This document shows positions 7,368 through 62,312 of a stretch of 64,000 nucleotides of DNA, in pieces. Positions within the stretch are counted from its first letter, which is position 1; every line of letters begins with the position of its first letter. The notes under the pieces are model-generated. The model was not told the origin of the DNA, did not search any database, and was given only the letters and a program-made list of their open reading frames with translations. The DNA comes from Terriglobia bacterium (GTDB lineage Bacteria; Acidobacteriota; Terriglobia; JAIQFV01). The DNA lies in NCBI GenBank assembly GCA_028716525.1, contig JAQUPQ010000011.1:1-64000 (forward strand). The letters run 5' to 3'. The translations under genes were made by a program, and so were the position numbers.

Positions 7368-7532
7368 CCGTGTCTCCTTTTGAAACAGTCTATGCCCTGC
7401 CCTGACAGGATAAGACGCAAAACCGCCGCGTGATGTTACCACGCGCCATGCCCTTCATAAAGAAACTTTTAAGGCAAATACGCCGCAAACCCGGTCAATC
7501 TCCCTCCACTGCCTCGAAAATAGCTTTGGTAG

Positions 7533-7729
7533 CGCCGGCAGTTCTTTATGCCGGCGATTATCTGTCGCCCCTGGCGGGGCTGGGCGGTCTTATCCGTCCG
7601 CAAGATTGTCAGTCCAGTCCCCCGCGGGGGACTAGGCTATTGAAAATATCCCTTGCAGGGACCAGAAAACGGTCGCTTCAAGTGCTGGAGTTCATTTTCA
7701 TGTCCTTGGGTGCCCCGATCTATCGGGGC
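7533..7729. repeat. Cluster of short REP-like palindromes in a non-coding gap
   Basis: Four hairpin-forming palindromes lie in 200 bases: CGCCGGC/GCCGGCG (7533-7556), GCCCC/GGGGC (7567-7580), the perfect 18-base AGTCCCCCGCGGGGGACT (7616-7633) and GCCCCGAT-CT-ATCGGGGC (7712-7729). The last resembles the hairpin at 28779-28820. No credible reading frame crosses the gap 7368-8035. Confidence 0.55.
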
Positions 7730-7749
7730 ATGAGGAACTGCCTCGAAAA

Positions 7750-7850
7750 AGGGTGTCAGGTACCGGGGAGAGTCTTTTGCTCAGAAAACATCCGGAAGGT
7801 TCTCTGCGCCGTCTCGGCCCGCCGCGGCGGGTCTCTGCGGTGAACGGTCG
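7750..7850 (+). repeat. Intergenic repeat family B, copy 1
   Basis: A roughly 100-base non-coding block opens with GGTGTCAGGTACCGGGGAGA, passes through TTCTCTGCGC and ends in TCTCTGCGGTGAACGGTC. The same ordered landmarks occur at 26645-26756 (opposite strand) and 56597-56690. Spacing and sequence between landmarks differ, so the copies are old and decayed. Confidence 0.6.
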
Positions 7851-7972
7851 TCCAGAGACCGAATCATTTGTTTTCATGCTCCTGAGTGCCACCTCGGGGC
7901 ATGAGTTGCCGCTCTGAACCCGCGTCGAGCCCCCCACGTTTCTCGGTTCCGGGTCATCGCATCAGATTTTGG

Positions 7973-24052: not shown

Positions 24053-24250
24053 AGTCTATTCAGTCTGGTCAGTCCATCCAGTCAAAAACATTGGGGATTT
24101 TCATATTGCGCGATTTCGCGATTTGAGAACGTTCGAGTCGTTCACAATTCGGCCATTCTCCCAGCCACAGGCATTTGAAATTCTACAAATTTGATTTTCA
24201 ATTTGCGCAATCGCGCATTCTCAAATCTCAAATGCTTTTAATTCGCGCAA
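24053..24250. repeat. MITE-like repeat family A copy (left of the peroxiredoxin gene)
   Basis: Starts with decamer-like family C sequence (GTCTATTCAGTCTGGTCAG), then a tail, then the core from GCGCGATTTCGCGATTTGA at 24108. Bases 24107-24182 are identical, in the same direction, to 24874-24949 (76 bp). Bases 24078-24126 are the exact reverse complement of 24965-25013 (49 bp). The right terminal repeat is degenerate (CAATTTGCGCAATCGCGC). No gene in this stretch. Confidence 0.8.
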
Positions 24251-24269
24251 TCCCAAATCTCCAATGCTT

Positions 24270-24707
24270 CTATAGCATATCCAACACTTCTTGCGGGTGT
24301 TTTGCCGCGTCGACTTTAGAAAACGCTTTCAAAATCTTCCCATCCTCCCCAATCAAGTAGGAAATGCGCTTGGCGTATGAGTCCTTCGCAGATTCACAGG
24401 CGCCATAGACCTTGCCAATTTCTCGATTGGTGTCGCAAAGAAGTGGAAAGGGGAATTTGAATTTCTTGGCAAAAGCGGCGTTTTCTTCGACGGTATCAAA
24501 ACTTATCCCAAGAATCTTTGTGTTCTTAGTCTCAAAATCTCGGATTCGGTCCCGGAATCCGTTGCCTTCATTGGTTCAGCCGGGAGTATCTGCTTTGGGA
24601 TAAAACCACAGAACCACCTTCTTGCCCACGAAATCGCTCAAGGAAACCTCAGTGCCTTCATGCGTCTTGACCTTGAAATCAGGAGCCTTCTCACCTGGGG
24701 ATAACAT
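24270..24707 (-). CDS. bcp: Bcp/PrxQ-type peroxiredoxin with in-frame TGA (probable selenocysteine) at the catalytic site
   Basis: 145 residues if TGA at 24576-24578 is read as an amino acid. GGAGGG lies four bases before the ATG. The protein follows Bcp: MLSPGEKAPDFKVKTHEG, then VVLWFYPKADTPG, then codon 44 = TGA exactly where Bcp has its peroxidatic Cys (PGCT), then TNEGNGFRDRIRDFE, ILGISFDTVEEN and RISYLIGEDGKI, to a TAG stop. T41 and R114 of the active site are kept. The resolving Cys five residues on is Asn49; Cys91 and Cys104 remain. Peroxiredoxins reduce hydroperoxides with thiol electrons. A hairpin fitting a bacterial SECIS follows the TGA. Alternative: a nonsense mutation or sequencing error, unlikely given its exact position and the open frame beyond. 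Confidence 0.8.
24541..24561 (-). promoter_or_regulatory. Candidate bacterial SECIS hairpin
   Basis: In the mRNA sense (minus strand) CGGATTC pairs perfectly with GAATCCG around a 7-base loop CGGGACC, starting 14 bases after the TGA. The loop therefore begins about 21 bases from the TGA and has G in its second position. Both fit the published bacterial SECIS consensus (loop 16-37 bases from UGA, G among the first two loop bases). The hairpin lies inside the coding sequence, as bacterial SECIS elements do. Confidence 0.65.
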
Positions 24708-24834
24708 GCGTCCCTCCACTGGTTCAGAGTTGAATTTATTTGCTGAGATGGAAGAGATTATACGTGGAACGGTATCGCGGGGAAAGAAATTCTTCAAAGC
24801 CATCAACTCTGGGGGATTGACGACCTCAAAACAT

Positions 24835-25023
24835 TTGATATTTCGCGAGTCAAAAGCAATTGAGATTTGGGAATGCGCGATTTCGCGATTTGAGAACGTT
24901 CGAGTCGTTCACAATTCGGCCATTCTCCCAGCCACAGGCATTTGAAATTTTACAAATTTGGTTTTCAAATCGCGAAATCGCGCAATATGAAAATCCCCAA
25001 TGTTTTTGACTGGACAGACTGAA
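24835..25023. repeat. MITE-like repeat family A copy with intact terminal inverted repeats
   Basis: The unit 24875-24983 (109 bp) begins GCGCGATTTCGCGATTTGA and ends TCAAATCGCGAAATCGCGC, perfect 19-bp terminal inverted repeats, around a core also found at 24.1 and 26.0 kb. Left tail: CAATTGAGATTTGGGAATGC. Right tail: CAATATGAAAATCCCC, then family C sequence GACTGGACAGACTG. The stretch between the peroxiredoxin and truA genes holds no gene. Confidence 0.82.
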
Positions 25024-25031
25024 AGATCCTC

Positions 25032-25877
25032 TCAGTAAATCACCCGCTCCAAGAACAGCCCAAAGGGCGGCGCCGTCCATTCCGCGGGCTGGGGCGAAAC
25101 TGTATCAAAGTAGGATCTGAACTGCTCCAAGGAACAGCGGCCGGCATTGATTTCGACCATCGTGCCGACCAAACGCCGCACCATCTTCCACAGAAAGCGG
25201 TCGGCGCGAATGTGAAAGGTAACCATCTTCGCAAAACAAGGCCGCGTTATTTTAATCTCCCGCCAATCGCATTCGTCTATGGTGCATTTGAACGACCGGT
25301 CTTCTTCCTCGTCGGGATCACAAAAGGATCGAAAATTGTGCTTTCCGACCACGCACCGCGCAGCTTCCTGAAGCACGGCCAGTTTTAATTCCCGGCGCAC
25401 ACACCAGGCATGACGACGGAGAAACGGCGAATACTCGGGCACCAGCTGGTAGCGGTAGACCCTGGCTCGGGCATTATGGCGGGCATGAAAATTCAAAGGC
25501 GCAAATTCCGCCTGAAGAATGGTGACGTCGGCCGGCAAGGCCGCATTCAACTCTCGCCGGATCTTTTCAACCGACCATAACTGGGGATTTTCGTCGCCAT
25601 CGGCTGCTGAGACCGGGGTCCGCAGCAGCGGAATGTCGCGGCCCGATTGGACATGTCGGGGACTCGGTGGATCACCGTGCAGCACCACGTTGACCACTTG
25701 TCCCTCGGCATGAACTCCCCGGTCCGTTCGGCCGGCAGCGACAATCCGCGGATGTTCTTTCATGACATCGGCGAAAGCCAGCGCCAGCGCCCCTTGCACG
25801 GTTCGCACATTCTTCTGTATCTGCCATCCGTAAAACCGGCTGCCCTCGTAAGTGAGTGTAAGTTTGAGATTGCGCAT
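25032..25877 (-). CDS. truA: tRNA pseudouridine synthase A
   Basis: 281 residues. It converts uridines 38-40 in the tRNA anticodon arm to pseudouridine. The catalytic Asp lies in AAGRTDRGVHAEGQV. Other TruA signatures are LTYEGSRFYGWQIQKNVRTV at the N-terminus, NFHARHNARARVYRYQL in the middle, GKHNFRSFC, and DRFLWKMVRRLVGTMVEINA near the end. An unusual insert of about 30 residues (around residues 70-100, PPSPRHVQSGRDIPLLRTP) follows the first RNA-binding strand and makes this protein longer than E. coli TruA (270). Family A repeats lie on both sides, so no operon partner is evident. Confidence 0.95.
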   Translation of the reverse strand: MRNLKLTLTYEGSRFYGWQIQKNVRTVQGALALAFADVMKEHPRIVAAGRTDRGVHAEGQVVNVVLHGDPPSPRHVQSGRDIPLLRTPVSAADGDENPQLWSVEKIRRELNAALPADVTILQAEFAPLNFHARHNARARVYRYQLVPEYSPFLRRHAWCVRRELKLAVLQEAARCVVGKHNFRSFCDPDEEEDRSFKCTIDECDWREIKITRPCFAKMVTFHIRADRFLWKMVRRLVGTMVEINAGRCSLEQFRSYFDTVSPQPAEWTAPPFGLFLERVIY

Positions 25878-25879
25878 AA

Positions 25880-26180
25880 AAGCTGGTCTGTCCTGTCTAT
25901 TCAGTCTATCTCGAGGTCCGCGCTCTCTGCGGGGCGGTCAATTCGGTCTATCCAGTCAGGAACATTTGAGATTTCGCGATTGCGAGAATGCGCGATTTGA
26001 ATCAATTCGAGTCGTTCGCAATTCTGCCATTTCCCCAGCTACAGATATTTGAAATTCTGCAAATTTGCTTTTCAATTCACGCAATCGCGCAATATGAAAA
26101 TCTGAAATGTCTTTAATTCGAGCATTCCCAAATCTCAAGCGTTCTTGACTCGAGCAATCACCAAATCGCGAAATATGTTA
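25880..26180. repeat. Repeat family C followed by a diverged family A copy
   Basis: The stretch 25878-26182 has no gene. It opens with family C decamer-like sequence (CTGTCCTGTCTATTCAGTC and CGGTCTATCCAGTC). It then holds a diverged family A unit from GCGCGATTTGAATCAATTCG (about 25992) to TCAATTCACGCAATCGCGC, whose core (TTCGAGTCGTTCGCAATTC, CAGCTACAG, ATTTGAAATTCTGCAAATTT) aligns with the two copies near 24.1 and 24.9 kb. Tails of CATTCCCAAATCTCAAGC type follow. Confidence 0.75.
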
Positions 26181-26182
26181 TT

Positions 26183-26470
26183 TCAACCGTCTGTCTTCAA
26201 TCTCACGATGGTGGCTCCCCAGCCACCTGCTTCCGGACGAGCATCCTTGAAGTTTTCGACCAAGGCATGTTTCTCTAAAGTCGACCGCACTATTTCACGC
26301 TGCACTCCAGTCCCGCGACCGTGAATGATGCGGACTTCGCGAAAGCCTTTCTTGTGCGCTTCGATCAGGTATTCTGCGACGACCGCCCGGGTTTCCTTGG
26401 GTGAAAACGTGTGAAGATCGATCCAGTCCTCGATGGGAATATGAACGCCATCTCCCGCTTCATCGGCCAT
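26183..26470 (-). CDS. Stand-alone Smr-domain protein
   Basis: 95 residues forming one Smr domain, as found at the C-terminus of MutS2. The three signature blocks are IDLHTFSPKETRAVVAEYL (the DLH motif), VRIIHGRGTGVQREIV (the HGxG motif) and GGWGATIVRLK at the end. Smr domains are nucleases or RNA/DNA binders; single-domain forms are common and mostly uncharacterised, although some cleave RNA on stalled ribosomes. No mutS2 partner is nearby. The ATG is preceded by sequence without a clear ribosome-binding site, and family C repeats begin within ten bases upstream. Confidence 0.9.
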   Translation of the reverse strand: MADEAGDGVHIPIEDWIDLHTFSPKETRAVVAEYLIEAHKKGFREVRIIHGRGTGVQREIVRSTLEKHALVENFKDARPEAGGWGATIVRLKTDG

Positions 26471-26476
26471 GGGAAT

Positions 26477-26818
26477 TTGGTCTGTCCGGTCTCTCTGGTC
26501 TATTCAGTCTGTCTGGTCTATTCGGTCTGTTCAGTCATTTTAGTCTATTCTGTCTATCTCGAGGATCGTACAATTTAAGGAGCATGTAGCAGTAGCTCAT
26601 GGACCGTAGTGTACCCAGGAGCAAGAAAATGATTTGGGGTTTGGAGGGCCGTTTACCGCGGAGACGCTGAGGTCGCCGAGGTTGCGCAGAGAATCCTCCA
26701 GCTATTTCGTAACAAAGAACTTTTCCTGGCACCTGACACCCGGCACCCGACACCTATTTTCGGAGCGACTGAACAAACCGAATAGACTGAATAGACCGGA
26801 CAGACTGAACAGACCGTT
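26477..26818. repeat. Gap with inverted family C decamer arrays and family B copy 2
   Basis: The gap between the Smr and mutase genes has no gene. Bases 26479-26561 are a degenerate run of about 10-base units such as GTCTATTCAG, GTCTGTCTGG and GTCTATTCGG. Bases 26768-26816 carry the same units on the other strand. Between them, 26645-26756 is family B in reverse: read on the minus strand it runs GGTGTCAGGTGCC, GATTCTCTGCGC, then TCTCCGCGGTAAACGGCC. Confidence 0.7.
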
Positions 26819-31789: not shown

Positions 31790-31920
31790 TTTTGCATGGG
31801 TTTTTGCTTGACGATTGATCTTCCAGGAGTCTACAAACTACCCCTCGGGCTGAGGAGGCTTAGCCTGAATGAGTGGTGGTCTAGGATCCCCTGCCGATGA
31901 CCCGACAAGGAGGCAAAATT

Positions 31921-34900
31921 TTGAGCCGAAGATCAGGCTTTCTCATTGCGATTGGATGCGCACTTATATTTTCAATTGCCGAATCAGATTGGAATCGTCA
32001 TTTCATTTCTTCAACACCGTTGCTGGCCCAGAATTTGAAGTCTCCGCTCGAGACGCCACCCTCCAAAGACTCCGGATCGGCGAGCGCACCGGCCTCTCAA
32101 AATCAAAATTCTCAGGACGGCCAAAAACGGCCGTTAAGGTCTGTGAACGGCAACGACGCATTGCCCGGCGATGATCTGGATGGTCCGGATGCCATCATGG
32201 CGCGGGTCCGTTGGTATCTTCAGCGCCACGGCGACAACGGAATAATCGATGCGGAGCGTCGCCTCAAGATGGTTCGTGAAGAATACGTCAAGCGCCTGGC
32301 GGACGAAGCTAAACGAAATATCCAGGGCACAATTGGCGGAATCAATTGGGTCTCGATTGGCCCATCCAATGGAGCCGGGCGAATGACCGCGGTCGCTCCC
32401 CATCCCACGGTTTCCGGGACACTTTATGTCGGAGCCGCAGGGGGCGGCGTTTGGAAAACCACAGATGGCGGAAGCACCTGGACGCCGCTGACCGATTTCA
32501 TTAATGACCTGTCGGTCGGGGCTTTGGCGGTCGCACCCAGCGACCCCAACACCATCTATTTGGGTTCCGGCGAAGGCGGATACGCTGTGGACTTCATTAC
32601 GGGCATAGGCCTCCTGAAATCCACGGATGGAGGCAACACCTGGCAATTGCCGAGCTCGGTGGTGGCACCAATGTTCTATCGCATATTGGTAAATCCCGGC
32701 AACGCTCAAGAATTTGTGATCGGCACCAATCGAGGAGCGCTCCGTTCCTCGGACGGGGGCACCACGTTCACCAATGTCATTTCCTCTTCCACTTATGGCG
32801 ACGTCACCGACATGGTTCGAAGTTCGGCCGATCCGCAAACTCTGTTCGCCGCCACTTGGGATCGTTTTAATTGGTGCGCGCACTCGGCAACATGCTCCAT
32901 GAGCTCACCCAAAATTCTAAAGTCTACCGATGGCGGCCAGACGTGGACGGAAAAAAGCGCCGGACTTCCCGTGTCTACACCCACCCAGCATGTCAGCCGG
33001 ATGGCCTTGGCTATCAGCCCATCAAATCCCTCCATCCTTTATGTGGCCATGAACCTTGGGGTCTCGACCACCGGCGGCACGGCTCATATTTTCAAATCCA
33101 ACGACGGCGGTGAAACCTGGACTGATCTGACCTCCGTCTCTAATAACTCCGATGTCACCATCAGGACATACATGACTCTTCAGGATTGGTACGACAACAC
33201 CCTCGTCGTATCACCCACTAATCCCGATATCGTCCTGGCCGGCGGAGTGGGGATCATTCGCACTCTCAATGGCGGCGCCAACTGGTCTCGACCGCCTTTG
33301 TCGGGAGCCAGTGTTCATGTGGATCAACACGATTTCCGCTATCAAGGATCAGTTCTTTACTTCGCAAACGATGGAGGAATCTGGTCTTCTCCGGACAATG
33401 GAAATACTTCGACCGATCGAAACACGGGATTGGTGACTCGGCAGTATTATTCCATGGCGCTCGATCCAAACAATCCCAACCGTGTGTTTGCCGGCGCACA
33501 AGATAATGGAACGGGACAACGCAACGACACCGGCGGAACGCTTTGGACGGCCGTCATCGGCGGAGACGGATTTCAGTGTGCTGTGAATCCCAACGTTCCT
33601 GATTTTGCCTATGGGACAATCCAGGGAGATCTTGTTTTACGGTCCAAAAGTGCCGGATCGGGTTCGTTTTCAAGCATCAGGCCGGCCTTTCCCACCACTG
33701 AGCCACTCCCCTTCTTTTCTGTGCTCTCAATAGATCCCAATCAACCTTCAACCATTTACACTGGAACCTCCAGAGTATGGCAATCCACCAATGGTGGTGA
33801 CAGTTGGACACCTTTGCCGACCACTTCAAATGACGGCTCAAGTTGGGGCACCAGCGTTGTGGATCAGGTGGTTGTGCCAAAAGGAAACAGCTCGACGATT
33901 GTGGTCAACCGAACCACTTCGATCTTTCGATCCTCTGACGGGGGATCCAGTTGGGCCAAGATTTCCAACGGGCTCCCGTGTTGCATCAATAACGTTGAAT
34001 TGGATCCGCAAAATTCCAACATTATCTATGCGGCCATGGCGGGAACCACCGGGACTCGCCTGTGGCAATCCACGAACGGCGGTTCCACCTGGACAGCCCG
34101 GGATTCCGGCTTGCCGTCCTTCCCCACGCAGGTGGTCCGTGTGGATCCCACCGATTCCAACGATCTTTTTGCAGGAACGGACGTGGGTGTGTACCGATCC
34201 ATGGATGCCGGGCAAACGTGGCACAGTTTTGGAAATGGATTGCCCAATTCCTCCGCCCACGACCTTCGAATCACCAGCGATGGATCCATGCTCCGGACCG
34301 TGACCCATGGCCGCGGAGCCTGGGAACTCCAAATTCCCAGCTCGGGTAATCATCCTCCCACCGCGGCGATCTCTTCTCCGTTGGGAACACAGAATTTTAA
34401 CAAGGGAACCACATTGAATTTCACGGGAATGGTTTCTGATCCGGATGCAGGAGATAATGTTTCTGCATCCTGGACCTTTACGGACAATTGGCAGGTCACA
34501 CCGACGGTTGTCGGGACCGCCAATGCATCCCACACGTTCAGTAATGCCGGGGTCGCTCGAATAGCGCTGACCGCCATCGACAATCATGGCGCCTACGGAT
34601 CCTCTTCATTGTTGGCCAACGTTCATGAGTCCTTTGAATCCTGTTCCACCCCGTTGGTAATTCCCGGTAGCGGCCCGTTCCCCTTCTCCCTAACCACTTC
34701 CAACGAGGTGGCCTCAAGAAACGCAGGCGACCCCACGACTTCTTGCGTGTCGGTTACGGGACATCCACTGTGGTTAGAATTCACTCCCTCGGTAACGGCC
34801 AACTACAACTTCAACACCTGCGGGACCAATGTGGACACGGTGCTGTCGGTGTGGACTGGGAACGCCTGCGGTCCCTACACCGCCATTTCCGGGGCTTGCA

Positions 34901-36435
34901 ACGATGACGCCGGTTCGGGATCCTCATGTCAAGGAACAACAGCCTCGAATTTAACGGTGCATTTGAATTCGGGGCAGAGAGTGCGTGTTTTGGTCAACAG
35001 TTTCGGCACCTCACCTGGCGGTGTCATGCCGCTCAACTTGAAACGGTCTCCTGCGCCACTCGACGTGACTGTACCGTCGAGCTCGGCGATTTCAACCTCA
35101 ACCGCCAATCTGACGCCGCTTTCAATTACCTATGGAGCTTTGACAGCGACAAATAAGAGCGGCACCCACTCTTCGTTGTCTTCTGATCCGGTGGCCTTGG
35201 CGATCTTTTCATTAACCCAAGGTGGAACGCTTGTGACCGAGGCCGCAGTTCCAGGAGCCACACCCGGCAACAACGCGCGTGTGTTTGTGGATTATGACGC
35301 TTCGAAAGGTCGGGACAGCGGCATTGCCGTGGTCAACCCCAACAGCACGCCGCTTACTATCAATGTAACCGCCATTAGCAGCACCGGGACCTCGGTCCCT
35401 TGTACCGCCCTTCAAGTTCCCGCTCAGGGACATGCCGCCCGATTTGCCAGCGAATTCTGTTCCTTGACGAGCCCCTTCCTGGGCTCTCTGAATTTTTCAG
35501 CAAGCGCTCCCTTTGCCGCCGTGAATTTGCGGTCTGCGGCTAACACGCACGGTCAGCCGCTCTTCAGCGGCCTGCCGGTGATCGATCCCACCGCGGTGCC
35601 GACGGGGTCAAGTCTCATTTTCTCGCAGATTGCAGATGGAGGAGGCTTGGCTACACAGATTCTATTGATGAACACAAGCGGGACAGCAATCTCAGGGACC
35701 ATTGCCTTCTTTAACACCAGCGGGAATCCGGTTTCACTGGATTTTGGTCCACCTAATCCCGTCCAGGTCCTCAATTACAACATCGTATCCAATGGCGTGG
35801 CGAAATTCTCAACCACGGGGCTCAGTTCGACCATCAACGTAGCCTACGCGGTGGTGACACCGACGGTGGGACAGTTGCCCGCAGGCGCCGCCATCTTTGG
35901 GTCCGGCACTTTTGAGGCCGGTGTGCTGAATGCGGTTCCCACCACCCATGCGCGACTCTATATCGAAAGAGCTGCATCGCCTTTGCTTCGCGACACCGGG
36001 ATCGCCATGGTGAATCACAACGGTTCACCGGCGACGGCCAACCTTCAATTTGTCAGCTTGGATGGAACCTTCAACGTTTCGACGACTCTACACGTTCCAG
36101 CCAACGGCAAGATCGTGCAGTTTATCGAGCAGATCTCAGACCTCAGTAGTATCCCGGCGAATATCCAGGGTGTTCTGACCATGACCAGTGACCAGCCGCT
36201 GGCGGTCATTACGCTGCGGCAAACGAACAATCAGGTGGGAGACCTTTTGCTTTCAACACTGCCGGTGGCGGACCTCAACACAACGTCGCTGGCCCCCTTG
36301 TTCCTTCCGCAAATCGCTGACGGCGCGGGATTCCAAACTCAACTGATCTTTCTGAACACCACCGCCTCCTCGATGAGTATCCACGTGGACTTCATCGACG
36401 ACAACGGGAACCTGGTGGGAGTACTGCTTTTGTGA
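31921..36435 (+). CDS. Giant secreted beta-propeller (BNR/VPS10-like) protein with PKD-like domain and shared C-terminal module
   Basis: 1504 residues. I chose TTG 31921 because a perfect AAGGAGG lies seven bases upstream; ATG 31897 lacks one. A signal segment (RRSGFLIAIGCALIFSIAES) is followed by a linker. Next come about 700 residues of BNR/Asp-box repeats (WKTTDGGSTWTPL, LKSTDGGNTWQL, FKSNDGGETWTDL, WQSTNGGSTWTA), the sortilin/xyloglucanase-type propeller. A PKD-like domain follows (PPTAAISSPLG to LTAIDNHGAYG), then a Cys-bearing pre-peptidase-like domain. The last about 440 residues form a module shared with the gene at 53195-56425. Substrate and function unknown; surface or extracellular location is likely. 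A terminator follows. Confidence 0.85.
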   Translation: MSRRSGFLIAIGCALIFSIAESDWNRHFISSTPLLAQNLKSPLETPPSKDSGSASAPASQNQNSQDGQKRPLRSVNGNDALPGDDLDGPDAIMARVRWYLQRHGDNGIIDAERRLKMVREEYVKRLADEAKRNIQGTIGGINWVSIGPSNGAGRMTAVAPHPTVSGTLYVGAAGGGVWKTTDGGSTWTPLTDFINDLSVGALAVAPSDPNTIYLGSGEGGYAVDFITGIGLLKSTDGGNTWQLPSSVVAPMFYRILVNPGNAQEFVIGTNRGALRSSDGGTTFTNVISSSTYGDVTDMVRSSADPQTLFAATWDRFNWCAHSATCSMSSPKILKSTDGGQTWTEKSAGLPVSTPTQHVSRMALAISPSNPSILYVAMNLGVSTTGGTAHIFKSNDGGETWTDLTSVSNNSDVTIRTYMTLQDWYDNTLVVSPTNPDIVLAGGVGIIRTLNGGANWSRPPLSGASVHVDQHDFRYQGSVLYFANDGGIWSSPDNGNTSTDRNTGLVTRQYYSMALDPNNPNRVFAGAQDNGTGQRNDTGGTLWTAVIGGDGFQCAVNPNVPDFAYGTIQGDLVLRSKSAGSGSFSSIRPAFPTTEPLPFFSVLSIDPNQPSTIYTGTSRVWQSTNGGDSWTPLPTTSNDGSSWGTSVVDQVVVPKGNSSTIVVNRTTSIFRSSDGGSSWAKISNGLPCCINNVELDPQNSNIIYAAMAGTTGTRLWQSTNGGSTWTARDSGLPSFPTQVVRVDPTDSNDLFAGTDVGVYRSMDAGQTWHSFGNGLPNSSAHDLRITSDGSMLRTVTHGRGAWELQIPSSGNHPPTAAISSPLGTQNFNKGTTLNFTGMVSDPDAGDNVSASWTFTDNWQVTPTVVGTANASHTFSNAGVARIALTAIDNHGAYGSSSLLANVHESFESCSTPLVIPGSGPFPFSLTTSNEVASRNAGDPTTSCVSVTGHPLWLEFTPSVTANYNFNTCGTNVDTVLSVWTGNACGPYTAISGACNDDAGSGSSCQGTTASNLTVHLNSGQRVRVLVNSFGTSPGGVMPLNLKRSPAPLDVTVPSSSAISTSTANLTPLSITYGALTATNKSGTHSSLSSDPVALAIFSLTQGGTLVTEAAVPGATPGNNARVFVDYDASKGRDSGIAVVNPNSTPLTINVTAISSTGTSVPCTALQVPAQGHAARFASEFCSLTSPFLGSLNFSASAPFAAVNLRSAANTHGQPLFSGLPVIDPTAVPTGSSLIFSQIADGGGLATQILLMNTSGTAISGTIAFFNTSGNPVSLDFGPPNPVQVLNYNIVSNGVAKFSTTGLSSTINVAYAVVTPTVGQLPAGAAIFGSGTFEAGVLNAVPTTHARLYIERAASPLLRDTGIAMVNHNGSPATANLQFVSLDGTFNVSTTLHVPANGKIVQFIEQISDLSSIPANIQGVLTMTSDQPLAVITLRQTNNQVGDLLLSTLPVADLNTTSLAPLFLPQIADGAGFQTQLIFLNTTASSMSIHVDFIDDNGNLVGVLLL

Positions 36436-53194: not shown

Positions 53195-56100
53195 TCAGTT
53201 GAAGGGAACCAGCACTTGCTGGCCGCTGTCATTCAAGAATGAAATGGCGACGGTCCCCGAGCTGGAAGTTGTATTAATCGAAATGATCTGTGTCGTAAAA
53301 CCTCCACCATTCACAATCTGCGGGATGATCCCATTCGGAACGGGGGGATTATTCAAGTCAGCCACCGGCAAGGTTGAAAACAGATTGTCGCCTCGCTGGT
53401 TGACGGTCAATCGCAACGTGACCGGTGAGATGGGAACGTTGCTGGTGATGTTCAATACCCCTTGAAAATCAGCCGGGACCGGCGGAGAGGCCGAAGCGAA
53501 AATCTGTTCGATGAACTTGGCCAGATGTCCATTGGCCGGCAGGTTCGCGGTTGTGGTTTGGTTATAGGAGCCATCAAAGCTGACCACGTTGAACGTTACG
53601 GTCGCCGGTGTGGAAGGGCCGTTGGCATTCACAACAGCCACTCCGGTGTCTCGAACCAGGGGAGAAGAGTCGCGCTCAATGTAGACCCGAGCGGAGGTCG
53701 TCTTGGGCGCATTCAAGACCCCGGCTTGCGATGCCAGCCCGCCGGAACTGTTGTTGGAAGCAAACACCGCCGCTCCCGAGGGCAGCGCACCACTGGTCGA
53801 AACCACCAGCGCATAGGCCACCTTGAGGCTCCCCAAACCGGTTGTAGAGAACTTCACCATGCCATTCGCCGGGATGGAATAGGTGAGCGAGCTTCGCACC
53901 CCCAACGGACTGCCGAAATCCAACGAAATGGCATTTCCATTGTCATCCGCAAATGAGATTGTTCCACTGATCAGAGACCCCGTGGTGTTCATCAGAAGAA
54001 TCTGTGTGGGCGTGCCCCCGCCATCGACGATTTGCGAAAACACCAAACTGCCGCTGCTGGATGGCGTCACCGTGAGATCGGCCACCGGCAGGGCGCTGAA
54101 GATCTGCTCTCCATGGGTATTGTTGGCCGTGCGCAAATTGACGGCCGCGAACGGGGAGACGGAGCTAAATGTGATGGTTCCCAGAAACGGGCTGGTGAGA
54201 CCCGCGCAGCCCAGCTGGTTGACGAAGAGCGCGATGTGTCCGTGACCCGCAATCGGTTGACTGGAGCAAGCCGAGGAGGTGGCTCCGTCCATTGTCGTCA
54301 ACAACACATTAACAGTGATCGGATTCCCTCCTGCGTTCACCAGAGCTACTCCGCTGTTCTTCCCGCTGGCCTGATCATAATCCACGAAGATTCGTGCCGA
54401 GGTCGTAGTGCCGCTGGCCGGAATACCGGCTTCCGTGACAAGCACGTTATTTTGTGTCAAGGCAAAGATAGCCAACGTTACGGGGTCCGAGAGGGTCGTC
54501 GAGCCCACCTGACCATAGCTGACCGAGAGAGTACCGGCGCCTGTCGAAGTGCGTGAAAATCCCGTGCTCGCCGGCAGACTCTGCGTTAGCGCTGCGGGAA
54601 TCAAAGTGGTGTCGACTGAACCCAGTCCTCCTGTGGCAGTGGAAAAAAAACTTTGCCACCCTTGGCGAAAGGTGTCGATTTTGGATAAATCCCCAGCCGA
54701 CGGGGTCGTACCTTTCTGAACCAGCAAAACCCAGGCCTGGCGGAAACTGTGCGGAGAGCTCGCGGACGACGGATTTCGCGTGCCGTTGGCTGTGATGATG
54801 TCATTGATGGAAACATTATGACGTGTGCCTTGGAACGTGGGTGAATTTGTGTCCGGAGCGGAGCTGTTCACCTTGCCGGTGCCCGAGGGATTGAAGACCG
54901 CAAAACTATCCTGGACTTGGGACGGAGGCAGCAAACCCATGAGATACTGATCGAAATCGCTGTAGTGGCTGGTGTTTTGACTCGTGTTGACCGTGAAAGT
55001 TCCATTCAAGTTGTCGGTGAGAGCATTTCCTTCCATCACAGAACCCTTGGAATTAAAGAAGTAGCTCCAGTGCGCGCACTGCCGGCCCAGAATCGAATTT
55101 GAAAACGAAGGATCATTGCACACGGCTTCGGGAATATCATCGAAGGCCATCCAGCGGTGCCCAAACTCCTGACCCATCACTTCCACGGGACTGTTCGTCC
55201 CGAGAAAATGGGGAGTGTTGGGATCCAGAGGGAAATTGCCCAATGAACCCATATTGAGATAACTTTCCAATTTAGCCGGACTTCCAAAGCTGAAATTGGA
55301 ATCATCAAATATGCCCAGAGATCCCAATCCCCGAACACTGTTTCGGACATTGATCTCAAATGCGAAGGCGTTTCCCAAGTTCACCGGAAAGTTGGCGAAC
55401 ACGGTAATAAAGTTGTAGTCATCACCGTGGGTCTGGTAAAAAGCCCGAGCCAGCTCTTTATCAGAAAAGACTTGATTGAGCGTAAAAAACTCAAAGATGG
55501 CCCCTGATTCATTGGTGGGACTTGTCAAATGGGTGTAGTCCACGTTTGCAGGGGGAATTCCCTGATTATTGCCCGGCGCGATGCCGACTACGGCGGTCGT
55601 GGAATCTGCTCCCCCGGCGGGGGAAGAGATGCCATTGTATGAAAACTCAATGGCGCCGTTGGCGTGAAGGATGACTTCAAACGTGTAGTGATCTCGATTG
55701 GAAGCGGTGCACACATCCTGAAATCGAGACACATCGCTGTACAAAACGATGAAGCGATCGCTCTTCTGAAGCGTGCTGACTGAACCTCCGCAGGGGGGAA
55801 GGAGATCGGTAAAAAAGGGAGCGATACGAGGTTGCAGGTTCAGGAATCGGACGATATCTCGATCATCACTGGTGGCATCAGGTCCTGTGAAGGTCAAATG
55901 GCCGTCGGAACCCACCCAAACATTATTGTAAGTCTGCCCAAAAAATGTGAACGTAAATCCGGGAGCAAAGGAAACCTGGGTGGCATCGTCATCACCCAAT
56001 GAAGGAGCGGCAGGAAAGCTTCCGGGCACAATTGTAGATCCGGTTGCCACATCAAAATTCGGGGCGATTTTACTGACCAAATAGGTTGAGCCGTTGGGCG

Positions 56101-56425
56101 TGTACAAGATATTGCTATGGTCAAAGTCATAGCTGTTGATAGGGAAAACGATGAGCCCGTTATCTTCAATCACCGCAATATTCCCCATGTCGGCGTTCAA
56201 AGCATCCCTCTTGAACGATACATGTGGGCCCAACCGCCGGTATGACATGTCTTGCTCCCGGCGCTGAGACCGGATCGAGGTCACGGGATAGCTCTCATCC
56301 ACGAACACCCTTTCTCCGGACGGCTGCACGGGCGGTTTGGGATTCTTGGATTTTGAAAATACCGGTAACGGCACACTCAATACACAAAAAACAAAAAACG
56401 CCACCACACCTTTTCTAACCTTCAT
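53195..56425 (-). CDS. Giant secreted protein with peptidase-like QEFGH motif and shared C-terminal module
   Basis: 1076 residues. Signal peptide: MKVRKGVVAFFVFCVLSVPL, ending near VFSKS. Residues about 90-320 are a beta-rich, NIDO-like region (FAPGFTFTFFGQTYNNVWVG, PRIAPFFTDLLPPCGG). Residues about 330-630 contain VEVMGQEFGHRWMAFDD, which looks like a zinc-peptidase helix (HExxH) with Gln replacing the first His. Similar variants occur in related acidobacterial proteins as I recall them. The last about 445 residues (from LSVSYGQVG) match the C-terminal module of the protein at 31921-36435 and contain repeats ending ADL, TQILLMNT and so on. AAGGAGAAGAAGG precedes the ATG. Probably extracellular or surface-bound; activity unproven. 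Confidence 0.82.
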   Translation of the reverse strand: MKVRKGVVAFFVFCVLSVPLPVFSKSKNPKPPVQPSGERVFVDESYPVTSIRSQRREQDMSYRRLGPHVSFKRDALNADMGNIAVIEDNGLIVFPINSYDFDHSNILYTPNGSTYLVSKIAPNFDVATGSTIVPGSFPAAPSLGDDDATQVSFAPGFTFTFFGQTYNNVWVGSDGHLTFTGPDATSDDRDIVRFLNLQPRIAPFFTDLLPPCGGSVSTLQKSDRFIVLYSDVSRFQDVCTASNRDHYTFEVILHANGAIEFSYNGISSPAGGADSTTAVVGIAPGNNQGIPPANVDYTHLTSPTNESGAIFEFFTLNQVFSDKELARAFYQTHGDDYNFITVFANFPVNLGNAFAFEINVRNSVRGLGSLGIFDDSNFSFGSPAKLESYLNMGSLGNFPLDPNTPHFLGTNSPVEVMGQEFGHRWMAFDDIPEAVCNDPSFSNSILGRQCAHWSYFFNSKGSVMEGNALTDNLNGTFTVNTSQNTSHYSDFDQYLMGLLPPSQVQDSFAVFNPSGTGKVNSSAPDTNSPTFQGTRHNVSINDIITANGTRNPSSASSPHSFRQAWVLLVQKGTTPSAGDLSKIDTFRQGWQSFFSTATGGLGSVDTTLIPAALTQSLPASTGFSRTSTGAGTLSVSYGQVGSTTLSDPVTLAIFALTQNNVLVTEAGIPASGTTTSARIFVDYDQASGKNSGVALVNAGGNPITVNVLLTTMDGATSSACSSQPIAGHGHIALFVNQLGCAGLTSPFLGTITFSSVSPFAAVNLRTANNTHGEQIFSALPVADLTVTPSSSGSLVFSQIVDGGGTPTQILLMNTTGSLISGTISFADDNGNAISLDFGSPLGVRSSLTYSIPANGMVKFSTTGLGSLKVAYALVVSTSGALPSGAAVFASNNSSGGLASQAGVLNAPKTTSARVYIERDSSPLVRDTGVAVVNANGPSTPATVTFNVVSFDGSYNQTTTANLPANGHLAKFIEQIFASASPPVPADFQGVLNITSNVPISPVTLRLTVNQRGDNLFSTLPVADLNNPPVPNGIIPQIVNGGGFTTQIISINTTSSSGTVAISFLNDSGQQVLVPFN

Positions 56426-56727: not shown

Positions 56728-57717
56728 TCAGTCTTGATGCTCCTGCCACACCAAACGTGCGGCCCCCAGCAGCCCGGCCTTGTCGATCAGGCGCGACTGC
56801 ACAATGGGGAGGCGCTCGGCTCGATACACATAGGATCGAGCAAAGGCTTCTTTCTTCATGGAAGGCGAAAACATTTTCCAGGCATTTGCAGCTCCACCGG
56901 CAATGATGAATTTCTGGAGATCCAAAATCGTTGTCAAGTTGGCGACGGCCAAGCCTAGCGCCCGACCAGCCAGCTGAAACACCCGCCGCGCCGCCGGATC
57001 GCCTTGCTCCGCAATCCGGCACACGTCGAAAGCGCTGGCGTTTTTCTTTTTAGCGAACAGCTTCCGCAGCGGCTCCGACTCGCCTCGTTCCCCCGCCCAG
57101 TGTGCCCGCCGCACCATCCAGGGAGCGGCTGCGATCGTTTCTAAACATCCGCGGGTCCCGCAGTTGCACAGTTCTCCGTCAGGATCGACCACCATGTGAC
57201 CTGCTTCCGAAGCAATTCCACGCGTACCGCTCCAAATCTTGCCGCGCAAAACGATGCCGCAACCCACGCCGGTGCCCAGCGTGAAGAGGCAGGCATTCTC
57301 AACATCCCGAGCCGCACCCTTCCACACTTCCCCGAGAGCGGCCACATTGGCATCATTATCAATAATCACGGGGACCGGTAGGCGTCCTTCCATCTTGCGC
57401 TTGAATGGAAAATTTCCTCGGCCCGGAAAATTGGGTGATTCGTGCAATTCGCGATTGTAATAAACCAGCCCCGGCACACCCACTCCCACGCCGACGCAAC
57501 GTCCGGCCTTGCGGGAGGCGATGATTTTTATAATGAGATCGCACATGCGCCGGACCACGTCATCCCGTCCCCGTTCCACCCGGGTGGGAATGCGTCGCTC
57601 TTCAAGAATGCGCCCTCGGGAATCCACGGCAGCCACCCGCATGTTGGTGCCACCCAGATCGACACTCACGGCATAGTCCATTCGGGAAGCTTTTTCGTCG
57701 CGATGTAAAGTCTTCAT
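56728..57717 (-). CDS. ROK family sugar kinase (glucokinase-like)
   Basis: 329 residues from the ATG at 57717; ATG 57681 is a shorter alternative that starts directly at the ATP site. ATP-binding motif: VSVDLGGTNMRVAAVDSRG. Sugar-binding and catalytic region: IIDNDANVAALGEVWKGAA and FTLGTGVGCGIVLRGKIW. ROK zinc site: SEAGHMVVDPDGELC plus NCGTRGCLETIAA. No DNA-binding domain is present, so it is a kinase rather than a NagC/Mlc-type repressor. Glucose is the likeliest substrate but N-acetylhexosamines are possible. It begins 23 bases after the flavin reductase gene on the same strand. Confidence 0.92.
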   Translation of the reverse strand: MKTLHRDEKASRMDYAVSVDLGGTNMRVAAVDSRGRILEERRIPTRVERGRDDVVRRMCDLIIKIIASRKAGRCVGVGVGVPGLVYYNRELHESPNFPGRGNFPFKRKMEGRLPVPVIIDNDANVAALGEVWKGAARDVENACLFTLGTGVGCGIVLRGKIWSGTRGIASEAGHMVVDPDGELCNCGTRGCLETIAAAPWMVRRAHWAGERGESEPLRKLFAKKKNASAFDVCRIAEQGDPAARRVFQLAGRALGLAVANLTTILDLQKFIIAGGAANAWKMFSPSMKKEAFARSYVYRAERLPIVQSRLIDKAGLLGAARLVWQEHQD

Positions 57718-57740
57718 GTGCAGTTTCTCTCGGGGAATGT

Positions 57741-58208
57741 TCAAAAAATCTTTCCGTTGCGATACACGGCGGGGTTCACCTCTCGCAACACCGCCCCGTC
57801 GACCACCTCACCCACCATGACCAAGTGGCTGCCCACCACGGAATGCGACACCAACTTGCAATCCAGATAAGCAATGGCATCGGAAAGAATCGGTGCTCCG
57901 GTCACGCGGCTGTGAGTCGACAGTCCGATAAACTTGTCGGCTTCTTTGGAAGTAACTCGGCCCATGGCATAAGCTAGATCTTTATGCTCGGGCGCCAGGA
58001 CGTTAATGGCGAATATACCACTCCGCAGCAACAGCTGAGTTGTGGCGCTATCAGGCGTCAGCCCCAGAATCACGTGGATGGGGTCCTTGGAAATCTGAGA
58101 AACCCACACCGCGGTCATGCCGCTGCGCTCTTCCGCCATCTGAGTGGTGACGAGATACACCCCGTAAGTGAAGGAATAAACAGCCTGTTTGGCTTCTTCC
58201 AAACTCAC
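57741..58208 (-). CDS. Flavin reductase-like (FMN-binding split barrel) protein
   Basis: 155 residues from GTG, with AGGAGAGG upstream. The FMN split-barrel pattern is visible: FTYGVYLVTTQMAEERSGMT, VSQISKDPIHVILGLTPDS, FAINVLAPEHKDLAYAMGRV and SHSVVGSHLVMVGEVVDGAV. Members supply reduced FMN to partner monooxygenases or act as flavin-containing NAD(P)H reductases. The downstream ROK kinase is an odd partner; no monooxygenase lies within 4 kb. The gap 58209-58547 holds the terminator below and nothing else that I recognise. Confidence 0.9.
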   Translation of the reverse strand: MSLEEAKQAVYSFTYGVYLVTTQMAEERSGMTAVWVSQISKDPIHVILGLTPDSATTQLLLRSGIFAINVLAPEHKDLAYAMGRVTSKEADKFIGLSTHSRVTGAPILSDAIAYLDCKLVSHSVVGSHLVMVGEVVDGAVLREVNPAVYRNGKIF

Positions 58209-58547: not shown

Positions 58548-61500
58548 TTAAAAGATAAACTCGATGCCCAACTCGCCGGAGAATGAGTGTGGAACGGTTA
58601 CTCCGCTTGACGTGATGAAATTGATTGGCTGACGGAATGAGGCATCTCGGATGTTGCCGTCAAAATTGTTTCCAAAGTTGGCCCGGTTGGTCACGTCGAA
58701 CATCTGCCAAATCAGGTTCAGCCTCTTGCTTTCACCCAACCGAATGGACTTGCTGACCCGCGTATCGAGCTGAAAGAACGCCTGCCCCCGCACGTTGTCG
58801 AACCCCGACTGCATGCAGGTTCCCGCTGCCAGGCAGGCGCGCAAGGTCGAAGCGCTGGCACTGGCGAAGGCCAGGAAATTCGTCGGGTCGCTGGGTGGAA
58901 CAAAAGCGTGGGCGTTGCCGCGACCGGTTCCCCAACCAAACACGTCGATACCCTGAATGGCGGTATACGGTCGGGCAGAAGCAAGCTGCATGATCGGCGA
59001 GATTTGAAATCCCCAGGGGAGATCCAACACGCCGCTCAAGACCCAGCGATGGCGTTCATCATTGGGGGTTGGACCGAGATCCCAGGCGCCAAAGATGTGG
59101 TTAAAGTCGGTCGGGCGATTCCGGAAGGCTGCTGTGTTTCCATTGTAGGCCAATGCCCGGGATAGGACGTAGTTGGTGTTCAGCGTGAAGTGGTGTGTCA
59201 TGCGCTTCCGGTAAGAGATATTCAATCCATCGTAGCGCGAACGGCCCACCGATTGCTCCACATCAACACGGCTCAACACCGGAACCCCCGCTGCAGCAAA
59301 CGCGGCACTCAACGGCCGAGCCCCGCCGTTGGCCGCTATCTTTGGATTGGCGTTAAAGGTCTTCGATTCGCGCAGCCCGAGTTCGTGAATATATTCCACT
59401 TCCACCACGGAAGTCGGCGTCAACTCGAACGAATAACCCATGTTCCACTGTTGCGAGTAAGGGTTGTGATAATCCGGATCCATCAGCCGACCTGTGGAGC
59501 CCGGCGGAAGTGAAGTCGGCGGAGGCGGATTGATCGGCAGAGGATCTATACCAAACCTCCAGTTCGACAGTTTGATACCGGTTCCGGGGACTATGTCGGC
59601 ATTGGGGTCGCCCAGACCTGCACTGGCAATACTGAGCGTCACCGCAAAGACAGTCGGATTGATCTGTTGGATCATGAAAAGTGGAATGTTCAGAAATGTC
59701 TGGCCATAATAGATGCCGTACCCGCCTCGCAGGGTTTGCTTCCCATTCCCCGTGATGTCCCAGGCAAATCCCACTCGGGGACTGAAGTCCTTGTTGTCAT
59801 CTTTTGGCAATCGCGCCGCGTAAGGATTGTTGATGGCTTTCAACTCCTGGAAGGTCCGGTTCAACGGCTGGGCATTGGTTCCGATGAGATTGAAGTCTTT
59901 GTCCCAGCGCAGTCCCAGGTTGACCGTGAGGTTTCTCGTCACCTTCCAGTCGTCCTGGAAGTACATGCCGAACATCTTCGCTCCACCCTGAAGATTGAAG
60001 TACGGGTTCCCTGAAGTGTTAGACATTCCGATCACCGCGCCAGGGGTCGCAAAACCCTGGGGGTACAAGGTCTTGTTGGAAGTGATCACGCTGGGGAGGT
60101 CCAGAAAATCAATTTCCAGCGTGGGATTGAACTCGAAGAATCCACCCAGGGTCGGCTCCCAGAGATAATCAAATCCGGTTTTGAAATTGTGTTTACCGTG
60201 AATGATGGACAAGTCATCCCGGAACTGCCACTTTCTTTGATAAGACTGCTGCGGCACGTTGGTGTTGGTGCCAAAAGTGATTCCGCCTGGAAACGTCACT
60301 GTCGGAACTTTCTTGTCCGTATCAATCACGTTGTTCCAGTACTGGAAGCCGGCCGTAAAGTTGTTGACGAGGTTCGTGGAGATCACCGAATTGAGGGTGA
60401 GACTGGCCAGTTGCAGCGCGTTGGTGGTGAAGTTCCCGGCCGTAAGATCGTTCGTTTGAGTGGATTGATCATTCAGACCGCGGTTGGTCTGCTGGCTGAA
60501 TGCGAGGTTGATCGTGTTGTTCTGATTAATGTGGTGATCGATGCGCGCATTCCAGCGCCAGTCGCGATAAGGCGTGGGAATCAAGGCGACGGGCTGGGCT
60601 CCCAAGCTCGTGACCAACGAGAGCTCGGCAAACGCCTGGGCGGTCACTGGAATGTTGGTGTTTTCACGTTGACGCTCCAGCGAGAAGAAGAAGAAGTCCT
60701 TGTCCTTCCGGATAGGACCGCCAATACTGCCCCCGAACTGTTGCCGGCTGAACGGCGGCTTGGCATTGCCTGCTTGAATAGAGAAAAAGTCGTTGGCGTT
60801 CAGCCGCTCGTTCCTTTCAAACAGAAATCCGTATCCATGGAATTGGTTGCCTCCAGACTTGGTGATGACATTGACCGCCGCCCCCTCACTGCGTCCGTTG
60901 GCCGCCGAAAAGCGCTGGGTGCTGATAATAAATTCCTGCACAGCGCCCAATGGAAGCTGCATGACTGGCCCGCCAACGGTGTTGTCCTTGTCATCGATAC
61001 CGTTCACCGTTACATTGACGTTGCGTCCGCTGGAACCATTGATTCCGAAAACCGCGATGCGGTTTTTAGTGGGATCATAGGAATCCACTGGCTTGGCGCC
61101 AGGCGCCAAAATGGCCAGATTGGCAAAGTCACGCCCATTCAAAGGCAAATTCTGCACCTCTTGTGGCGTGATGTTCTGACTGACCGAGCTGCTCGTAGAA
61201 TCGATCAGCGGTGCTTCTTCCGTCACGGTGATGGTTTGACTTTCCGCACCGGGGGACATCGTAAAATCAATGTCGGCGGTTTGGCCGACCAATAACTGCA
61301 CATTGTCAGAGGTGATCGTCGCGAATCCTTTCATCGTCACCTTGATGGCATAGAGACCCGCCGGCAATAGGTCAATGCGGTAGGTCCCGGTCCCATCCGT
61401 GATCGCACTGCGGCTTGCCCCCGTTGCTTTTTCAGTCACTGTTATCTGGACACCCGGAATGACCGCCTTGGTTTGGTCGTACACCACTCCCGTCACGGAT

Positions 61501-61589
61501 GTTCGCGCCGTCGCCTGGGCAAAAGCCAAGGCCCCCATGCCGACGAGCACCATCATCGTGAGACACGCCCGTGCCATAAACGTCCTCAT
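58548..61589 (-). CDS. Oar-like TonB-dependent outer-membrane receptor
   Basis: 1013 residues from the ATG at 61589, which follows AAGGAGGG. Signal peptide (MARACLTMMVLVGMGALAFA), then a carboxypeptidase-regulatory domain (TSVTGVVYDQTKAVIPGVQI, GTYRIDLLPAGLYAIKVTMK). The plug follows (SSVSQNITPQEVQNLPLNGR and DFANLAILAPG), then NVNVTVNGIDDKDNTVGGPV. A long beta barrel ends in the aromatic signature GELGIEFIF. This is the receptor type abundant in Acidobacteria and Myxococcus (Oar), used for large polysaccharide or peptide substrates. The TonB-ExbBD motor is encoded at 12.5-15.4 kb. No SusD-like or hydrolase partner is adjacent. Confidence 0.94.
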   Translation of the reverse strand: MRTFMARACLTMMVLVGMGALAFAQATARTSVTGVVYDQTKAVIPGVQITVTEKATGASRSAITDGTGTYRIDLLPAGLYAIKVTMKGFATITSDNVQLLVGQTADIDFTMSPGAESQTITVTEEAPLIDSTSSSVSQNITPQEVQNLPLNGRDFANLAILAPGAKPVDSYDPTKNRIAVFGINGSSGRNVNVTVNGIDDKDNTVGGPVMQLPLGAVQEFIISTQRFSAANGRSEGAAVNVITKSGGNQFHGYGFLFERNERLNANDFFSIQAGNAKPPFSRQQFGGSIGGPIRKDKDFFFFSLERQRENTNIPVTAQAFAELSLVTSLGAQPVALIPTPYRDWRWNARIDHHINQNNTINLAFSQQTNRGLNDQSTQTNDLTAGNFTTNALQLASLTLNSVISTNLVNNFTAGFQYWNNVIDTDKKVPTVTFPGGITFGTNTNVPQQSYQRKWQFRDDLSIIHGKHNFKTGFDYLWEPTLGGFFEFNPTLEIDFLDLPSVITSNKTLYPQGFATPGAVIGMSNTSGNPYFNLQGGAKMFGMYFQDDWKVTRNLTVNLGLRWDKDFNLIGTNAQPLNRTFQELKAINNPYAARLPKDDNKDFSPRVGFAWDITGNGKQTLRGGYGIYYGQTFLNIPLFMIQQINPTVFAVTLSIASAGLGDPNADIVPGTGIKLSNWRFGIDPLPINPPPPTSLPPGSTGRLMDPDYHNPYSQQWNMGYSFELTPTSVVEVEYIHELGLRESKTFNANPKIAANGGARPLSAAFAAAGVPVLSRVDVEQSVGRSRYDGLNISYRKRMTHHFTLNTNYVLSRALAYNGNTAAFRNRPTDFNHIFGAWDLGPTPNDERHRWVLSGVLDLPWGFQISPIMQLASARPYTAIQGIDVFGWGTGRGNAHAFVPPSDPTNFLAFASASASTLRACLAAGTCMQSGFDNVRGQAFFQLDTRVSKSIRLGESKRLNLIWQMFDVTNRANFGNNFDGNIRDASFRQPINFITSSGVTVPHSFSGELGIEFIF

Positions 61590-62312
61590 ATTCCCTCCTT
61601 GGACAAAAATGAATTTTCCTCCCCCCAAGGATTTGTCTCCACCCATAACTCCCGCATTGTTATGGAACTCATGAATTCAAAAGATAGTCCCTGCCTTGGG
61701 GTCAATTCCTAACCTCGATAAAATCTCGATTAGGCCGTTTCTGATTTTTACAAGTTCATCCAACTTCAAAAGGAGATGGGATAAATCCGCAGAAGGACAT
61801 GCACTGGGAATGTAAGACTCGCCACCCTCAGGAATAATCCTGACAGGAGTCGGTTCGGACAAATTTGAATTACGGGATCAAGGAAACGCCTTCGCGCAAC
61901 CCTTCCAAAGGCATCCTCAGGACAGCCACCTTATATGAACGCAACCCCTCGCAACCCACAAAATCCAAAACACATAGAACATCGAATTGGATTCAATCAC
62001 ACAAGAATTAGAGCCTTGCGTTGCGGTCAATAACACAATTCCAACAATGATTTCGCAAATTACTCTCCCCTTTTCCTTCTGTCAAGAAGAAATTAGACCT
62101 GTATTGTCCGGTTGGTGCAGCGATTGTTTTGGGTGTGAAATGAAAAACCGTAGGGGGCGAGTTCTATCGAAGAACTTCTATCTTCTTTCAGAACAGTGTG
62201 GCTGCGGGCCAGTGGTACGTAATCCGGCAAAGATCGACGCAGGTTATTCTTCGGGAAGGGTCACCTCAATAAAACTTCTCCACCGGATTCCTAATCGGCA
62301 GGCCCTCAAACA
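61590..62312. other. Non-coding gap upstream of the receptor gene
   Basis: 723 bases without a gene I can support. Short open frames on either strand (for example 61677-61862 minus and 61987-62316 plus) start with TTG, lack ribosome-binding sites and have third-codon-position composition unlike the flanking genes. The part next to 61590 presumably holds the receptor's leader and promoter. No clear -35/-10 pair, repeat or hairpin was seen. Confidence 0.5.

Follow-up and report, generated by a model that had tools for sequence, protein, structure and literature searches.

The window analysed here, a 64,000-nt stretch of a Terriglobia bacterium genome, contains two large, open and complete reading frames, ORF A and ORF B, whose products end in a common C-terminal tail (Table 1). 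In ORF A a signal-peptide-like N-terminus is followed by a Sortilin/BNR propeller, a PKD domain (Pfam assignments) and the tail. In ORF B a signal-peptide-like N-terminus and an N-terminal region without Pfam match precede it. Residues 1028-1501 of ORF A align by blastp with residues 594-1073 of ORF B over 489 columns (49% identity, 407 bits, E 1e-125), which bears out the claim of a first-pass annotation that the two protein ends align. The motifs quoted there are found in both tails, and the shared C-terminal module of about 445 residues described there stands, although at 458 and 463 aa it is slightly longer; the second protein is encoded on the minus strand, which corrects the earlier record. 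No relationship between the two N-terminal regions was detected by blastp, in agreement with the same annotation, and the propeller of ORF A is real, but the label “peptidase-like” for the N-terminus of ORF B is backed by no Pfam or NCBIfam match.

Table 1. Positions in the window of the two carrier genes, their tails and the parts of each tail.
Feature	Position	Strand	Remarks
ORF A	31897..36435	+	1512 aa counted from ATG
Tail A (ORF A)	35059..36432	+	458 aa, two tandem units
Tail A, half-lobe 3b of split fourth lobe	35059..35271	+	71 aa, ends ...TLVTEAAVPGATPGN
Tail A, lobe 2, unit 1	35272..35610	+	begins NARVFVDYD; lobe type aligning with ASRT
Tail A, complete internal lobe 3	35611..35946	+	begins SLIFSQIADGGG; crosses unit boundary
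Tail A, lobe 2, unit 2	35947..36291	+	begins HARLYIERAASPLLRDTG
Tail A, half-lobe 3a	36292..36432	+	47 aa, protein end; strands lost in model without 35059-35271
ORF B	53195..56425	-	1076 aa
Tail B (ORF B)	53198..54586	-	463 aa, two tandem units
Tail B, half-lobe 3b	54401-54586	-	
Tail B, lobe 2	54050-54400	-	
Tail B, lobe 3	53696-54049	-	
Tail B, lobe 2'	53339-53695	-	
Tail B, half-lobe 3a	53198-53338	-	

Elsewhere in the window, the intergenic region 24054-26815 holds three 157-nt direct repeats (78-80% identical) together with inverted copies of them; 9-nt units of the GTCTATTCA/GTCTGTTCR type form arrays there on both strands. A dispersed repeat family is represented at 7506-7905, which is 78-90% identical to stretches in four other contigs (L033, L040, L046 and L047), some of them inverted. 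An Oar-like TonB-dependent outer-membrane protein with a CarboxypepD_reg domain is encoded at 58548-61646 on the minus strand, with a ROK-family gene (56728-57744) nearby.

The tail is covered by no family in Pfam, NCBIfam or PHROGs and has no significant sequence match in the PDB; a phmmer match to the surface antigen 8t7k was rejected as weak (E 0.23). The first-pass annotation had named an already defined domain as the finding that would speak against its view. No database family covers the tail, although its lobes fall distantly within a described superfamily (see below).

Searching all 104 contigs (4.2 Mb) of this soil bacterium's genome returned 42 tail matches, which correspond to about 20 ORFs with complete tails plus contig-end fragments. 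The N-terminal partners within this genome include propellers of the Sortilin/BNR, NHL, SBBP and FG-GAP types, as well as a kumamolisin activation domain, M12B reprolysin, leucine-rich repeats, TIG, Lcl_C and an endonuclease/phosphatase with a lamin tail; in one contig-end fragment a GH44 domain is joined to the start of the tail. The N-terminus of one carrier (L043) we read, from its repeats, as a probable beta-helix, where Pfam gives FG-GAP and BACON. The tail is exchanged between N-termini: of 51 nearest tail pairs from the same genome, only 18 are joined to homologous N-termini, and tail and remainder of the carrier have had partly separate histories. Two contigs share identical 127-bp ends in tail genes (L045/L049); these ends resemble assembly k-mer overlaps and are not counted here as a sign of recent gene conversion. 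Downstream of tail genes, two contigs share a 291-bp stretch of 93% identity (L033 12208-12498 and L044 8649-8939). Plasmids and phages were also searched, and no tail was found in them.

Nineteen of 41 genomes (own genome and relatives) carry the tail, with 18 to 51 matches per genome in the own family and in one other family of the same class. Across the phylum sample the tail was matched in 57 of 396 genomes, often by incomplete units or by units in another arrangement; scoring covered only about four candidates per genome, so that per-genome counts are lower bounds and absences tentative. Named records with the tail are from Acidobacteria/Terriglobia, plus one contig of a Bacteroidetes MAG (CTSoil_037, L054). 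This MAG has SprA, and the contig with its tail gene is 5.7 kb long; the record may reflect horizontal transfer or contamination.

Each tail is built from two tandem units of about 230 residues, each with two lobe types, and not from the “two to three internal repeats” noted earlier. The order within a unit is 3b, lobe 2, 3a, where 3a together with the following 3b makes up lobe 3. The tail consequently opens with a half-lobe 3b and closes with the complementary half-lobe 3a, and has four lobes in all: lobe 2, lobe 3, lobe 2' and a split fourth lobe 3' with its halves at opposite ends of the tail. When the two ends of tail A are joined as 3a-3b, the product aligns along its whole length with the internal lobe 3 at about 32% identity; lobe 3 and lobe 2 are weakly similar to each other (E 0.0077). 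Among complete tails at sampled loci of relatives, 78 of 81 have exactly two units, a count biased towards two by a sampling that favoured complete two-unit matches. A stop codon follows within 10 residues of the tail end in 77 of the same 81, and the sampling did not favour this C-terminal position. The TGxA motif is strongly conserved, and LRxxxN is kept in more than 94% of tails.

Structure prediction, which the first-pass annotation had proposed, returned ASRT-like lobes with AlphaFold2 and Foldseek. The AlphaFold2 model of the tail (19 own-genome tails) reached a pLDDT of 90.6 and a pTM of 0.88, with both ends near 90. Foldseek of the whole tail against the PDB gave one meaningful match, the ASRT protein TM1070 of T. 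maritima (1nc7; probability 1.00, TMt 0.70). Birnavirus capsid matches, which ranked above 1nc7 by E-value, were rejected as jelly-roll noise (TM about 0.1, probability at most 0.54). A model without the first 71 residues (3b) retains most of the fold; half-lobe 3a loses the strands that it has in the full model (E425-432, E439-446), and its pLDDT drops from about 90 to about 82. With this deletion model 1nc7 becomes the first Foldseek match, and the Anabaena ASRT structures 2ii7-2iia reach a TMt of 0.85 at probability 1.00. Because removal of 3b costs 3a its strands and confidence, the models suggest that the two half-lobes pair, a result that would be the same for pairing within a chain and between molecules. 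An ASRT-like fold with closure by the split lobe is predicted with good support, and the tail is probably a pseudo-tetramer in which a single chain closes on itself.

In the literature searched, one paper alone was relevant to the tail, namely that of De Souza, Iyer and Aravind (PMC2739507), who in 2009 defined the ASRAH superfamily from ASRT. According to these authors the superfamily is marked by two conserved residues, an Asn that ends strand 2 and a Trp that begins strand 1; its secreted members are found as dyads or tetrads, and its sugar binding is a prediction. The evidence that connects the tail to this superfamily is of several kinds. Lobe 2 aligns with ASRT in hhalign (E 4.7e-5, 87 columns, probability 68% without secondary structure). 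Lobe 3 alone is not significant against ASRT by sequence (E 0.076), and its membership therefore rests on the fold prediction and its weak similarity to lobe 2. A bridge protein from another acidobacterial genome (L147) matches the profile of the tail unit at 8.8e-21 and, slightly below the curated cut-offs, both ASRT (2e-4) and DUF5719 (2e-5). DUF5719 (PF18986) is likewise matched by a second bridge protein, L149, and by L046, the latter above its cut-off and also matching the tail unit. L046 (7446-8336, own genome) encodes a stand-alone, secreted-looking protein of 297 aa with little beyond one tail unit. All 74 tails compared have the strand-2 Asn in lobe 3 and in the first-unit lobe 2, whereas the other two lobes have it in only 40 and 31 of the 74. 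Like the secreted tetrads, the tail has four lobes if the split lobe is counted.

Other hallmarks of the superfamily and of ASRT are absent. The tail consensus has ARxFxD / xFPQxADGGG without the Trp, and the pocket signature of ASRT, SHEshChhN, corresponds to (D/N)TGxAxxN, so that the pocket His and Cys are replaced by Asp/Asn and Ala. PF07100 (Pfam) does not recognise the 19 tails, with a best E of 0.3 in one of the 19, and none of the 19 reaches the gathering score of PF18986. Given the profile match of lobe 2 to ASRT, the L147 bridge and the presence of the Asn, set against the missing Trp and pocket residues, we file the tail as a new, divergent ASRAH family outside PF07100 and PF18986.

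Among its closest known counterparts is ASRT itself (PF07100; TM1070 1nc7, Anabaena 2ii7-2iia), the founder of ASRAH, with which it has the beta-sandwich fold and a fourfold assembly in common. ASRT is intracellular, single-domain and homotetrameric, whereas the tail is presumably extracellular and carries four lobes in one chain, the fourth of them split, without the pocket His/Cys and the conserved Trp. DUF5719, which is probably the actinobacterial surface-lipoprotein family treated in PMC2739507, is similarly secreted with ASRAH-type lobes in multiples; the tails differ in being C-terminal modules on many unrelated proteins rather than a lipoprotein of their own.

With moderate confidence, we propose that the tail is a mobile, ASRAH-lobed C-terminal module, closed on itself by its split lobe, which binds polysaccharide and so anchors its carrier. 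Four ASRAH beta-sandwich lobes would lie in one chain, 3b opening and 3a closing the tail, and the two halves of lobe 3' would most likely pair within that chain, so that one polypeptide would form a compact equivalent of the ASRT homotetramer. The carriers would leave the cytoplasm through Sec by means of their signal peptide and then cross the outer membrane, probably by the type II route; GspD is present in the genome. Once outside, the tail would most likely bind polysaccharide of the cell surface, of an exopolysaccharide matrix or of the soil substrate, and would thereby hold the N-terminal enzyme or propeller in place. During its history it has been copied repeatedly onto unrelated secreted proteins.

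Export of the carriers agrees with a hydrophobic N-terminal segment in 69 of 83 tail carriers compared with 97 of 335 control ORFs, as judged by a crude heuristic (not SignalP) and with non-genes among the controls; the occurrence in non-secreted proteins that the first-pass annotation had named as contrary evidence is thus not the pattern found. That annotation had suggested an anchoring, secretion or adhesion domain. A common C-terminal tail on about 20 carriers, with lobes of a predicted sugar-binding superfamily, suits this view in part, but the secretion function has become less likely. A rival reading is a sorting signal recognised by a dedicated machine for secretion or attachment at the outer membrane, in the manner of the C-terminal domain of type IX cargo. 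The position at the extreme C-terminus in those 77 of 81 tails would suit it, as would the presence of the tail on tens of secreted cargoes of one genome that are otherwise unrelated. The type IX domains (TIGR04183, TIGR04131) are also beta-sandwiches at the C-termini of many secreted proteins. SprA, the translocon of the type IX system, is however absent from the own genome and from one tail-rich relative, both searched with a model that gave 2e-268 in a Bacteroidetes positive control, which makes a type IX tag less likely. The T9SS C-terminal domain models in NCBIfam do not match the tail, and no exosortase was found in the genome, so that sorting by either system is without support. At 458 aa the tail is far larger than the type IX domains of about 80 residues and, to our knowledge, than known sorting signals in general. 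In addition, four proteins from another family of the class (L123, L125, L127 and L134) carry the two-unit tail N-terminally or mid-protein, preceding other domains. We consider a sorting signal improbable.

A structural cap or spacer, in which the lobes would shield or stabilise the C-terminal end of their carrier without binding any ligand, appears equally improbable: the loss of the ASRT pocket residues would suit it, but the relatives of the tail are predicted sugar binders (PMC2739507). The conservation of TGxA and LRxxxN and the near-constant four-lobe make-up also exceed what a spacer would seem to need. Quite improbable, finally, is a polymerisation module, with the 3b of each carrier pairing with the 3a of a neighbour to form head-to-tail fibres or a surface lattice. 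The split of the fourth lobe between the tail ends, the need of 3a for 3b in the model and the precedents for donor-strand type assembly elsewhere would suit it, but the confident single-chain prediction with both ends near 90 favours closure within the chain, and in most carriers a large N-terminal region directly precedes 3b.

If the polysaccharide anchor is extended further, the split-lobe ASRAH pseudo-tetramer might be a general localisation tag of some Acidobacteriota, with a dedicated partner in the surface polysaccharide or outer membrane; it would place tens of unrelated secreted proteins in each genome, much as the type IX domain does in Bacteroidota; we regard this wider version as unlikely, if conceivable.

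Soil is rich in Acidobacteriota, whose large secreted proteins are in many cases without assigned function. One previously undescribed tail accounts for about 20 such proteins in the present genome, and related genomes yield as many as about 50 profile matches to it. As far as the literature searched shows, ASRAH function has rested on prediction since 2009, and a single-chain tetramer with a split lobe would be a new architecture for the superfamily. If the tail is indeed a glycan anchor, it would offer a testable handle on how enzymes are retained at the cell surface or in the matrix.
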